IMG/VR virus record: IMGVR_UViG_3300046007_004022
Coordinates: 1 to 21,227 of that record
Strand: one strand, 5' to 3'
Length of the DNA: 21,227 bases
From: a virus
The notes under the pieces were generated by a model. The model made no database searches. It was not told the DNA's origin and saw only the letters and a program-made list of their open reading frames with translations. Below are positions 2,396 through 8,825 of this stretch, piece after piece; position 1 is the stretch's first letter; every line of letters starts with the position of its first letter. The position numbers and the translations under genes were made by a program.

Positions 2396-3166
2396 TTAAG
2401 CGGCTTTGCCGACACGAAAGCCGTGTAGATTGATGACGATATCTTTGGCGCTTTTGCTTGTATTGCCAGCGCACAAGCCGCAACGGTCGCATGATGTGCG
2501 CGAGCCGTTTTCCGTAGCGGCTGGACAGCCGATTTCAGTCGTCGTTTTAGTCTCGGCCGCGCGTTTGGCCCTAAACGTACGCCAGCCGCAAGCGCTCGCC
2601 AATAGCTGGTCGCTTTCTGTCTCGCATGACGCCATGCATAGCAGCGCAAACGCTTGGAAACGTGGGTCACGCCATTGGTGCGAATAGCCCGTGATTTTAG
2701 CAGCGCGCAGGGTCGCGGCGCGCCAGATTTGAAATGGTGCGGCCGCGGGATCGCCATACGTTCCCAAACGAAACGCGCGGCCGGCGAACAATTCCGGTAG
2801 AATCGCCGGATCATAATCAACGCCCGGCTTGGCGTATCGGCCACGCTCATATGCGCCGTAGACGCTGGCGACTGATTTCGCCACGTCGACATAACATTTG
2901 CCGCCCTTAAACGGCCGTTGCGGGCAATCGCCGCAGACGCTTTCGTCTTGGCCGGTTTTCAGCGCGCGGTATGGGTTAACATCGGCGCGGATGATAAACG
3001 TCTGTACCATAGCGCCAGTCTTAGCGTTAGCGCTCGCCGTCTCGATCCGGCTAGCTATAACGACGACTGGCGCGCCATCGATTGCGCTCGGCCCCTCATA
3101 CAGGATCACGCCGGTAAACCGATTGCGCTTGATTGATTTGAGCAGGTCGTTTGCGTTGTCGATCAT
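2396..3166 (-). CDS. Cysteine-rich conserved phage protein (DUF7227-like)
   Basis: The 256-residue protein belongs, as I remember it, to a widespread phage family of unknown function. Visible hallmarks are C78-x2-C81-P with C91 (VCGDCPQRP, then CYV), RLGTYGDPAA (133-142), GYSHQWRDP (160-168), MASCETESDQ followed by GWRTFR (178-199), and a terminal C226-x2-C229-x2-C232 with His248. The cysteine groups suggest bound zinc or an iron-sulfur cluster. The C-terminal C-x2-C-x2-C-x15-H pattern is loosely reminiscent of the zinc site of tRNA-guanine transglycosylase-like DNA-modifying enzymes, but no 7-deazaguanine synthesis genes are in the window, so this is speculation. A strong AGAGAGGAAG ribosome site precedes the ATG. 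Confidence 0.8.
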   Translation of the reverse strand: MIDNANDLLKSIKRNRFTGVILYEGPSAIDGAPVVVIASRIETASANAKTGAMVQTFIIRADVNPYRALKTGQDESVCGDCPQRPFKGGKCYVDVAKSVASVYGAYERGRYAKPGVDYDPAILPELFAGRAFRLGTYGDPAAAPFQIWRAATLRAAKITGYSHQWRDPRFQAFALLCMASCETESDQLLASACGWRTFRAKRAAETKTTTEIGCPAATENGSRTSCDRCGLCAGNTSKSAKDIVINLHGFRVGKAA

Positions 3167-3185: not shown

Positions 3186-3194
3186 TGTGGATAT
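3186..3194 (-). promoter_or_regulatory. Near-consensus DnaA-box sequence upstream of the 256-residue gene
   Basis: On the - strand this reads ATATCCACA, one mismatch from the DnaA box TTATCCACA. It sits about 20 bases before the ATG at 3166. It is part of a 15-base exact repeat (TGTGGATATGTTACG on the + strand) that recurs at 3431-3445. It may bind the phage DnaA-like protein or host DnaA. Confidence 0.4.
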
Positions 3195-3204
3195 GTTACG
3201 ATAA

Positions 3205-3226
3205 GGCGCGCCGGTTAAGGCGCGCC
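3205..3226. repeat. GC-rich inverted repeat, possible hairpin or weak terminator
   Basis: Two GGCGCGCC palindromes (3205-3212 and 3219-3226) flank a 6-base spacer and can pair as an 8-bp stem. It lies between the 57-residue gene and the 256-residue gene. On the - strand it is followed by TTATCG rather than a T-run, so termination would be weak. It could modulate the ratio of the two genes. Confidence 0.45.
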
Positions 3227-3233
3227 GTTAGTG

Positions 3234-3407
3234 TTAAGCCGCTGCTATCTTGCGCGCCAGTTGGACGATGGCCGCGCGCTCGCTGTCGACTAGCATCGCG
3301 AAGGGGTGCTTGCGATCATACGCGACGACGGCGCGCGCGGCTTTGACCAGAGCGTCGCGGTTCCCGGCGCGGTAGGCGGTTTTTAAAGCGGTGATTTTCT
3401 TTTCCAT
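3234..3407 (-). CDS. Small basic protein, first gene of the leftward operon
   Basis: A 57-residue frame begins MEKKITALKTAYRAGNRDAL and continues as an Ala/Arg/Val-rich helical protein (VKAARAVVAYDRKH, then SERAAIVQLARKIAAA). AGGAAA lies just before the ATG, and the promoter at 3445-3472 is immediately upstream, so this is the leader gene. It is strongly basic and all-helical, which could suit nucleic-acid binding, but no family is recognised. Confidence 0.65.
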   Translation of the reverse strand: MEKKITALKTAYRAGNRDALVKAARAVVAYDRKHPFAMLVDSERAAIVQLARKIAAA

Positions 3408-3430: not shown

Positions 3431-3439
3431 TGTGGATAT
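3431..3439 (-). promoter_or_regulatory. Near-consensus DnaA-box sequence at the expected transcription start
   Basis: On the - strand this reads ATATCCACA, one mismatch from TTATCCACA. It starts 5 bases after the -10 element, where transcription should start. It has the same orientation as the exact box at 3458-3466 and lies 27 bp from it. It belongs to the 15-base repeat shared with 3186-3200. Confidence 0.45.
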
Positions 3440-3444
3440 GTTAC

Positions 3445-3472
3445 GTTATAGGCCTTTTGTGGATAATGTCAA
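3445..3472 (-). promoter_or_regulatory. Sigma70-type promoter of the leftward operon
   Basis: On the - strand there is a perfect -35 hexamer TTGACA (3467-3472), a 16-base spacer, and a -10 hexamer TATAAC (3445-3450) with five of six consensus bases. It points at the gene starting at 3407 and probably drives the whole operon. The spacer begins with an exact DnaA box. Confidence 0.75.
3458..3466 (-). promoter_or_regulatory. Exact DnaA-box sequence inside the promoter spacer
   Basis: The - strand reads TTATCCACA, identical to the high-affinity Escherichia coli DnaA box. It directly abuts the -35 hexamer and ends 7 bases before the -10. A DnaA-type protein bound here would be expected to exclude RNA polymerase. 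Confidence 0.65.
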
Positions 3473-3966
3473 GGATTATTTTACGAAAAGGCGAAAATAG
3501 TTGCGGATCGTCGTAGGATCGTCGGACAACATGGCGTTGAATGCGAGGCGCTGCTTGAAAACGTCATATCGTCATGAGAGTTGTTATAGGGAGTTTTAGA
3601 ATAAATGTAAACATAATAGTATAGCAACCTGCAAAAGTTTTCAGCGACCTGAAACGTCATGGCAATCCGACGATCCGACGTTTTTTGTCCCGCGCCGTCC
3701 AGGCGCAAACACTCTGCATGAACCTGCGTCGTCATGACGATCCGACGTTTTGCTGGCGCGTGTTCGAACCTTCCAAGTGCATGACGATCCGACGTTTGAT
3801 TGTCAACTTAATGTGATGCTTTAAGTATACATTCATTGAGCTGATCGGGGTCGATCCAGGTCGAAACGGGAGGGGGGCTGGGCCGAGGGATCTCCTTTAA
3901 GAAATACGCAGGGGTCACAGCAAAAATTTATTTTTATTTTTTGATAGCACCGTGATAAAAGACTTT
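3473..3966. other. Non-coding divergent control region
   Basis: No convincing gene lies between the leftward promoter and the first rightward gene. The region is richer in A and T than its neighbours and holds the repeat cluster described separately. It also has an AT-rich stretch around 3796-3832 where TTGTCA and TTTAAGTATAC could form a weak rightward promoter, though the spacing is poor. A run of A and T lies at 3924-3945 just before the small terminase gene. I see no tRNA and no strong terminator. It is the natural place for a replication origin, operators and the rightward promoter. Confidence 0.55.
3505..3797. repeat. Iteron-like repeat cluster with GACGATCC core
   Basis: GACGATCCGACGTTT occurs exactly three times on the + strand, at 3669-3683, 3736-3750 and 3783-3797. 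The last two share the longer CATGACGATCCGACGTTT. Two inverted copies of the core (GGATCGTC) lie 11 bp apart at 3505-3512 and 3516-3523. Related CGTCAT words recur near 3561-3576 and 3655-3660. A perfect 12-bp palindrome TCGTCATGACGA sits at 3729-3740. AAACGTC at 3652-3658 can pair with GACGTTT at 3677-3683. Repeated sites in both orientations in a divergent gap suggest protein-binding iterons or operators. Confidence 0.6.
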
Positions 3967-6708: not shown

Positions 6709-8825
6709 TGGCAAGTGATGACGTAATCGCCGCTGGCAAAGTCTCCGACAACCCGGACGATGACCGTCTGGCCACCATGCGTCACCGCTTCACGGTGGCG
6801 CAGGCGGCCTATTCAGACAGCCGTGAAGATGAGCTGGACGATCTGCGGTTTATGGCGGGCTCGCCAGACAACGCCTGGCAGTGGCCGGCAGACGTGTTGG
6901 CGACCAGAGGCGCGGTGCAGGGCCAGACGATCAACGCGCGGCCGTGCCTGACGATCAACAAACTGCCGCAGCACGTGCGCCTCGTGACGAACGAGCAACG
7001 CCAGAACCGCCCGACCGCCCGCGTCATCCCCGCCGACGACAACGCAGACCCGCAGGTCGCGGAGATCTTCGACGGCATCGTGCGGCACATTGAGTATATG
7101 TCCGACGCCGACGTGGCCTATGACACGGCCTGCGACAATCAGGTCACCTACGGCGAGGGCTACATCCGCATTCTGACGGAATACACGAAAGAAGACTCTT
7201 TCGAACAGGACATCCGCATCGCGCGCGTCCGTAGTAGCTTCAGCGTCTATATGGACCCGATGATCCAAGACCCGTGCGGTCAGGACGCGAACTGGTGCTT
7301 TATTACGGAAGACATTCCGAAGGCCGAATACGAGCGCATGTATCCCGACGCCACGCCCGTGACCGGCATGATGTCTCAGGGTGTGGGCGACCAGACGCTC
7401 AGCATGTGGGTCAGCCAGGAAACTGTCCGTATCGCTGAGTATTTTTACATTGATACGAAGCGCGCCACTCTTAACCTCTACCCGGACAACATCACGGCGT
7501 TCAACAATACGCCAGAGGACAAACGGCTGAAGGCTGTCTATGGCAAGCCGCTGCGTAGCCGTGAGAGCGACCGTCGCAAGGTCATGTGGATCAAAACCAA
7601 CGGCTATGAGGTGCTGGAGGAACGCGAATGGGCGGGTAAATATATCCCCGTGATCCGCGTCATCGGCAACGAGTTCGAGGTCGACGGTCAGATCTACATT
7701 AGCGGTCTTGTGCGTAACGCTAAAGACGCGCAGCGCATGTATAACTACTGGGTCAGCCAAGAAGCGGAAATGCTCGCTCTGGCCCCCAAAGCGCCGTTTA
7801 TCGGTTATGGCGGCCAGTTCGAAGGCTATGAAACCAACTGGAAAACGGCCAATACGAACAACTGGCCGTATCTGGAGGTCAATCCTGATGTTACCGACGG
7901 AGCCGGCAACCCGCTACCGCTACCTGAACGCGCCCAGCCTCCGATGGCTCAAACGGGCCTTATTCAAGCCAAGATGGGGGCTGGCGAAGACATCAAGTCG
8001 ACCACTGGCCAGTACGATAGTAGCATTGGGGCGACTTCCAACGAGCGGACGGGTCGTGCAATCCTCGCTCGGGAGCGGCAAGGAGACACGAGTACTTATC
8101 ATTATGTCGACAACCTTGCGCGGGCGATAAAATACGTCGCGCGGCAGCTCGTCGACATGATTCCAAAGATCTACGACACGCAGCGCGTGGCGCGTATTAT
8201 CAATGTCGAAGGCGAAGTTGGCATGGCGCGCATTAACCCGGCCCAGCCGGAGGCGGTGCGCAAGATTGTCAACGAAGAAGGCATTGAAATATCCAAGATC
8301 TACAACCCCAATGTCGGCACCTACGATGTGCATGTGTCGTCTGGTCCTAGCTACATGACGCGCAAACAGGAGGCGATGGACACAATGGGCCAGATCCTCC
8401 AGACCAATCCGGCGCTTTGGTCGGTCGCGGGCGATCTGTTCGTCAAGAACATGGACTGGCCTGGCGCTGAAACGATGGCCAAACGGTTTGAAAAGATGCT
8501 CGACCCGAAAGTCTTGCAGGACACCGACGAATCGCCGGAAGCGCAGGCCATGCGTATGCAGATGGAGCAGATGGCGCAGGAGATGGAGCAGACAACGGCT
8601 CAGATCCAAGCGCTTATGCAGTCCTATGAGATGCAGAAACTGGCGATTGACGAGCAAAACGCGCAGATTAAGGCTTATGACGCCGAAACTAAACGTATAT
8701 CGGCCATGCAAGCGGGCATGACGCCTGAACAGGTGCAGGACATCGTGCAAGGCACCATCGCAGCGGCGTTGGACATGGGTGATATTGTGCCAGGTAGTGC
8801 GCCGATGCGGGAGATAGGACAATGA
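6708..8825 (+). CDS. Portal protein, P22-like
   Basis: The portal forms the dodecameric ring through which DNA enters and leaves the capsid. The 705-residue length and the motifs NARPCLTINKLPQHVRLVTN (near 76-95), NRPTARVIPADD, the YDTACDNQVTYGEGYIRI segment and the GATSNERTGRAILARERQGD segment fit the P22-type portal family. The C-terminal region from about residue 605 is Gln/Met/Glu-rich and helical (QMEQMAQEMEQTTAQIQALM and onward), consistent with the long helical barrel of P22-type portals. Its ATG overlaps the preceding stop, and its TGA overlaps the next start as ATGA. Confidence 0.93.
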   Translation: MASDDVIAAGKVSDNPDDDRLATMRHRFTVAQAAYSDSREDELDDLRFMAGSPDNAWQWPADVLATRGAVQGQTINARPCLTINKLPQHVRLVTNEQRQNRPTARVIPADDNADPQVAEIFDGIVRHIEYMSDADVAYDTACDNQVTYGEGYIRILTEYTKEDSFEQDIRIARVRSSFSVYMDPMIQDPCGQDANWCFITEDIPKAEYERMYPDATPVTGMMSQGVGDQTLSMWVSQETVRIAEYFYIDTKRATLNLYPDNITAFNNTPEDKRLKAVYGKPLRSRESDRRKVMWIKTNGYEVLEEREWAGKYIPVIRVIGNEFEVDGQIYISGLVRNAKDAQRMYNYWVSQEAEMLALAPKAPFIGYGGQFEGYETNWKTANTNNWPYLEVNPDVTDGAGNPLPLPERAQPPMAQTGLIQAKMGAGEDIKSTTGQYDSSIGATSNERTGRAILARERQGDTSTYHYVDNLARAIKYVARQLVDMIPKIYDTQRVARIINVEGEVGMARINPAQPEAVRKIVNEEGIEISKIYNPNVGTYDVHVSSGPSYMTRKQEAMDTMGQILQTNPALWSVAGDLFVKNMDWPGAETMAKRFEKMLDPKVLQDTDESPEAQAMRMQMEQMAQEMEQTTAQIQALMQSYEMQKLAIDEQNAQIKAYDAETKRISAMQAGMTPEQVQDIVQGTIAAALDMGDIVPGSAPMREIGQ

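Follow-up and report, generated by a model that had tools for sequence, protein, structure and literature searches.

Two described systems come close to the one reported here. In Escherichia coli, the promoter region of dnaA contains a DnaA box by which DnaA represses its own gene (PMC5835720). In E. coli DnaA, R399 reads the 5' portion of the box through the minor groove, and TnCACA is read through the major groove by the helix of residues 434-451 (PMC5742627); the listed contact positions are 399, 423, 432-435 and 438-439 (PMC5043019). In the cluster A mycobacteriophages, the repressor is a monomer that binds asymmetric sites; these lie in promoters and in the gaps between genes, and their orientation follows that of transcription (PMC9283540). 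DnaA-like C-terminal domains are found in many phages, where their role is not known, and a literature search with most subscription papers outside its coverage returned no paper on a phage regulator that consists solely of DnaA domain IV. Here we describe a whole phage lineage in which such a domain is tied to a putative operator that can be read by eye.

The DNA analysed (the window) is an IMG/VR virus record of 21,227 bases, and all coordinates are positions in this whole stretch. A leftward early operon extends from about 3470 down to 868, and the terminase, portal and tail genes are read rightward. On the minus strand, the early promoter consists of the -35 element TTGACA (3467-3472) and the -10 element TATAAC (3445-3450) with a spacing of 16 bp. 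The spacer holds an exact DnaA box, TTATCCACA, at 3458-3466 (O1). A second box, ATATCCACA within TAACATATCCACA, is found at the predicted start site (O2, 3431-3439), 27 bp from O1, and a leader copy of ATATCCACA within GTAACATATCCACA stands at 3186-3194, 19 nt ahead of the ATG (3166) of a gene for 256 residues. Compared with the DnaA box 9-mer TTATnCACA, O1 matches throughout, whereas base 1 deviates in O2 and in the leader copy. The first-pass annotation had described TTGACA directly followed by an exact box, a one-mismatch box at the expected start 27 bp further on and a third copy before the 256-residue gene, and its letters and positions are correct; in the minus-strand reading the three lie at 3472-3458 (with TTGACA), 3439-3431 and 3194-3186. 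A generic promoter scan of the window did not list this promoter because the scan demands a T at the last -10 position, where TATAAC has a C. We assigned the promoter because it is conserved in relatives: TTGAC[AG] is kept in nearly all distinct related promoters and a -10-like hexamer occurs at the same place in most of them.

The exact core TATCCACA occurs in the 21,227 bp only in these three boxes, all on the minus strand and all inside 281 bp. The expected number is 0.45, and at least three copies were found in 0.8% of shuffles, whereas three copies on the same strand within 300 bp were found in 0 of 3000 shuffles. When the 9-mer was allowed one mismatch, the window held 8 matches against 3.9 expected. 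Since this excess is unimpressive, it is the clustering and the strand bias that go beyond chance, not the count. A further repeat copy at 1705-1724 (GTAACATATCTACT) was dropped, as it lies inside a coding frame and is conserved there.

All genes of the operon are on the minus strand. The first is a 57-residue gene (3234-3407), an exchangeable cassette that is present in 6 of 18 box-bearing operons and elsewhere replaced by other genes. It is followed by a terminator-like GC hairpin of 8 pairs just ahead of the leader box (3205-3226; fold -19.0 kcal/mol, z -2.6), which the scan had listed on the plus strand. The 256-residue gene (2396-3166) belongs to phrog_2554 (PHROG E 1.1e-70). Its product is cysteine-bearing and is also found in phages of Mycobacterium, Klebsiella, Gordonia, Caulobacter and others. 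The operon core continues with genes for 53 residues (2069-2230; its family occurs in 18/18 of the box-bearing operons and in 13/14 of the box-free ones), 103 residues (1773-2084) and 50 residues (1539-1691; both in 18/18 and 14/14), and 82 residues (1304-1552; 18/18 and 10/14). The last of these overlaps the gene for the 81-residue DnaA domain IV protein (1123-1368), the proposed operon repressor, and a 67-residue gene lies downstream (868-1071; 15/18 and 14/14). Apart from domain IV, no gene family was universal in the box-bearing operons and absent from the box-free ones. The first-pass annotation had placed the domain IV protein in the same operon as the boxes. Its identification of the domain stands (see below), and strand, spacing and overlapping reading frames suggest that the gene is on the transcript of the early promoter.

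The 81-residue protein matched PF08299 (Bac_DnaA_C) with an E value of 1.1e-15 and 57.8 bits, where the curated cut-off is 31.5, and its sequence matched the structures 1J1V and 8BTG. The AlphaFold2 model had a pLDDT of 95, and its top 12 PDB matches were all DnaA, with an rmsd of 0.7 Å to 1J1V over 71 columns. The DnaA contact residues R399, D433, H434, T435, T436 and H439 are kept and P423 is replaced by Q, so that six of seven are identical; position 423 is also variable in Epsilonproteobacteria (PMC5043019). The likeness to DnaA domain IV (PF08299; 1J1V, 3PVP) thus covers the fold and every contact residue bar P423. The difference is that the phage protein stands alone, with 81 residues, in a phage early operon. 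The AAA+ domain III and domain I are absent: only the C-terminal part of TIGR00362 matched, far under its cut-off. Judged by sequence and model, the protein is a bare, free-standing DnaA domain IV, and the freshwater phages of this group seem to have acquired no more of DnaA than the end that reads DNA. The 50-103 residue core genes without a known domain are as universal as the domain IV gene, and one of their products, or a host protein, might bind TATCCACA independently of anything related to DnaA. However, none of the core genes other than the domain IV gene gave a DNA-binding match in profile searches, whereas domain IV has the residues that read this sequence, and we regard such a reader as highly improbable.

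Among viral contigs, 135 loci encode the 256-residue protein and 81 encode the domain IV protein. Loci with a domain IV of clade A have the box-bearing promoter. Sixteen distinct two-box promoters are of the window type, with O1 in the spacer directly 3' of the -35 element, the TATCCACA core kept, O2 in the form TAAC-N-TATCCACA and a distance of 26 or 27 bp between O1 and O2 in every one. Base 1 of the box is free in these promoters, and almost every O2 or leader copy has A there. In some promoters (L008, L083, L084 and L106) the second box is instead upstream of the -35 element. In contigs of 27-47 kb the boxes stand almost exclusively at the operon start and on the operon strand, and the 18 box-bearing loci together hold 54 copies of TATCCACA against 2.8 expected.

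The box-in-spacer layout, which the first-pass annotation had proposed to look for in related phages, was then sought independently of any protein, as TTGACNNTATCCACA-N8-16-TAACNTATCCACA in 2.9 million viral contigs. It was found in 32 contigs. In every one of the ten contigs that extend at least 3.3 kb downstream, a clade-A domain IV is encoded at a distance of 1.8-3.2 kb on the strand of the layout. The gene is also present, in the same orientation, in most contigs that extend 1.8-3 kb. Where the gene was missing, the sequence ends too early or, in L266, the gene is at the opposite end of the contig. The layout and the clade-A protein are linked. Scans with a single pattern were not used as evidence; among the matches listed, they gave mostly single matches, probably by chance.

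From these observations we propose that the 81-residue protein is probably a monomeric autorepressor that reads the two promoter operators and stoperator-like sites in the leaders. Domain IV would bind the asymmetric TATCCACA as a monomer, and the bound protein would cover O1 in the spacer and O2 at the start site and shut out RNA polymerase. As the protein accumulated, the early leftward operon would be turned down. In the leader, TAAC-N-TATCCACA points along transcription between the terminator-like hairpin and the ribosome-binding site, where bound protein probably hinders elongation in the manner of a stoperator. We favour autorepression because the boxes are placed so that bound protein would obstruct the polymerase, because they travel with the domain IV gene, and because they are missing where the protein has lost DnaA-contact residues. 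For the same reasons, the negative feedback loop is the best fit among the three ideas in the first-pass annotation, the others being a switch that reads host DnaA levels and an origin where the phage protein competes with DnaA; the boxes and their linkage are seen, and repression is what they would bring about. Counting against autorepression are two loci with the full residue set and one box (L092 and L095), the Q in place of P423 and the small number of changes in the contact set.

The arrangement resembles the stoperators of the cluster A phages L5 and TipsytheTRex (PMC9283540) in its asymmetric, transcription-oriented sites in a promoter and in short intergenic spaces, and the repressor is monomeric there and is likewise proposed to be so here. 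The cluster A repressor, however, is an unrelated protein of 183 residues with two DNA-binding domains (HTH plus Stoperator domain) instead of an 81-residue DnaA domain IV. Its sites are 13-mers, more than twenty across the genome, compared with 2-5 sites in one operon here, and cluster A phages establish lysogeny, whereas no integrase was seen among the genes examined here. With the autoregulation of E. coli dnaA (PMC5835720) the locus shares a domain IV and a DnaA box in the gene's own promoter region, repression being the likely outcome here. It differs in having two boxes, in the spacer and at the start site, and further copies inside the operon. Because the phage protein has no AAA+ domain, it should have neither a nucleotide switch nor domain III oligomerisation. 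An autorepressor of this kind would show how a domain of a replication initiator can become a transcription regulator in its own right. Beyond the actinobacterial phages, it would also serve as a simple model for monomeric repressors that act at stoperator-like sites. A more far-reaching version is that the phage gave the bare domain the joint role of repressor and stoperator protein, with the host DnaA box as its operator. Early shut-off and interference with host initiation might then be one switch, because the protein could also occupy the DnaA boxes of the host origin. We consider this version possible, though rather doubtful.

The boxes may also be bound by host DnaA, since they fit the host consensus and O1 matches it exactly. 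The host protein might even be the main reader, so that the promoter would follow the level or nucleotide state of DnaA and the phage domain IV would act as a competitor that relieves or tunes this control. The repression of dnaA by DnaA in E. coli offers a precedent (PMC5835720). In L092 and L095, whose promoters have a single site, O2 is the exact 9-mer TTATCCACA, and L172, a relative from a Rhodoferax bin, has many TTGTCCACA repeats, with no domain IV gene found in its early operon. On the other hand, the phage sites depart from the host consensus in having a free base 1, with A in almost every O2 or leader copy. Close relatives also lack the boxes even though DnaA boxes occur, as far as is known, in almost all hosts, and this lack accompanies changes in the phage protein. 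We therefore hold host DnaA as the main reader to be unlikely, and the host-DnaA switch of the first-pass annotation keeps its consensus match and is weakened by the free base. If host DnaA does read the same box, early transcription of the phage could connect with the replication state of the host. In L172, about eleven GTCCACA sites, some in tandem with a 9-bp period, lie at 6890-7410; TTGTCCACA is a variant of the DnaA box. The MAG loci L172 and L173 were set aside as a different arrangement, with boxes nearby and no domain IV match in the stretches examined.

Autorepression by the phage protein can be compared with natural variants in which the protein is altered and the boxes are gone, and these variants are available for testing the tie between domain and operator. 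Two box-free groups, B1 and B2, are close to the window in the terminase (about 84-89% identity), the portal (81-82%) and the 256-residue gene (80-86%) and keep the operon core, whereas in domain IV the identity to the window falls to 35-40%. B1 has N399 (H in one) and S439; B2 has T433, P or A at 435, A436 and R439. In the two groups TATCCACA is at background, with 2 copies against 1.9 expected and 0 against 0.6. The gene adjoining domain IV in L017, a member of B2, is still 83% identical, so the change in domain IV is sharper than that of its neighbour. The first-pass annotation had held that relatives keeping the gene without the boxes would speak against its circuit. Such relatives do exist, but their recognition residues are altered, and they lend the circuit indirect support.

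L014 lies inside the box-bearing clade of the terminase tree and has a domain IV with N433, S435 and Y439. Its promoter, TTGACA-16-TATAGT, has no box, and a single leader copy is left. The promoter region of L014 (4380-4680) contains many GACTAT/ATAGTC repeats and no DnaA boxes; these repeats are possibly a changed operator for the altered protein. L041, with Y439, retains O2 and has no O1. T435S is found with one promoter box in L003 and L007 and with two boxes in L434, and this exchange alone is therefore uninformative. No more than four changes of the contact set fall on the terminase tree, and only two of these are on well-supported branches, so that the covariation of residues and boxes cannot reach significance and is a consistent pattern rather than statistical proof. 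A Fisher test of the residue set against the boxes was not used, as its rows are related and T435S was scored as altered despite L434, and a tree-based pair test had too few events. The idea that B1 works through an inverted DnaA-like box (TGTGTTAG/CTAACACA) was also rejected: the motif usually occurs as one copy, probably belongs to an extended -10, and has an inverted partner in two loci only. A general link between phage domain IV proteins and boxes was rejected as well, with no box excess at 34 distant loci. Since distant proteins with all contact residues show no excess nearby, the circuit is not implied by the domain in general.

A parallel is found in phage DSL-LC05 (OR003940), a distant relative whose terminase is 65% identical. 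In the slot of the domain IV gene, opposite the primase, it has a gene annotated as 'repressor protein C'. The product gave only a weak HTH match, and the annotation is therefore a lead. The early promoter, TTGACA-ATCTGACCCAGTGGGT-TAGAAT, has a 16-bp spacer holding the palindrome TGACCCAGTGGGT, which is repeated six or seven times nearby. The two operons share the gene slot, the target site in the spacer and further copies nearby; they differ in that the DNA-binding protein of DSL-LC05 is not a domain IV and its site is the palindromic TGACCCAGTGGGTCA. By analogy, this suggests that the domain IV slot is the repressor slot of the operon and that the spacer is the operator site. In the same phage (L184, 3540-4130), where TGACCCAGTGGGTCA occurs in the spacer and several times nearby, a separate repeated leader, TGTAACCCGTAACCGTAAAGGAACC, stands ahead of gene starts.

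The leader copy in the window belongs to a family of elements ahead of interchangeable genes, which the first-pass annotation had overlooked. In relatives, TAAC-N-TATCCACA is repeated ahead of different gene cassettes, 9-27 nt from the ATG. Counting O2 copies, 42 distinct sequence contexts have the exact element, and forms with one mismatch are few. A hairpin below -12 kcal/mol was found just upstream in 16 of 20 leader contexts and in 3 of 27 comparison contexts; the latter are mostly start-site copies, and the three positives are leader copies misplaced by a simple sorting rule. Close relatives differ by exchange of the cassettes between GTAACATATCCACA elements (3234-3407 in the window, and the stretch before the 256-residue gene in relatives), which gives the leader the look of a recombination seam. 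The element could accordingly serve in the mRNA leader, for processing or ribosome standby, or as such a seam, with its likeness to a DnaA box being secondary. The short distance to the ATG and the strong hairpins would fit this, as would DSL-LC05, which has repeated leaders without its operator. Yet the same 8-mer, without the TAAC part, is kept in O1, which lies in the -35/-10 spacer ahead of the predicted start, and the linkage to domain IV would be a coincidence. We find this explanation quite unlikely as a whole; the leader copies themselves may act at the RNA level, but such a role would not account for O1.

The boxes could also be part of a phage replication origin bound by domain IV, host DnaA or both, as the first-pass annotation had considered. 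The relatives have genes for a primase-like protein and a DNA polymerase of family A and none for an evident initiator, and the adjacent intergenic DNA is AT-rich with CATGACGATCCGACGTTTT repeats. The boxes, however, are fixed relative to the -35 and -10 elements and to gene starts, they recur hundreds of bp into the operon, and the AT-rich intergenic region persists in box-free relatives. An origin at the boxes appears very unlikely. The AT-rich DNA itself may well be a replication origin: at 3559-3798, between the early operon and the terminase genes, three direct and one inverted iteron-like CATGACGATCCGACGTTTT repeats surround an AT-rich stretch.

Two observations were made on the wider set of loci. 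MAG bins with similar terminases were assigned to Rhodoferax, Burkholderiales, Methylococcaceae and others, where the binning of phage contigs is weak evidence for the host. In Podoviridae ctNMl277 (L183, 7636-8027), a 'dnaa protein helix-turn-helix' is annotated, and several palindromic TTTACATAAAC/TTTACGTAAAC repeats lie upstream of the early operon.
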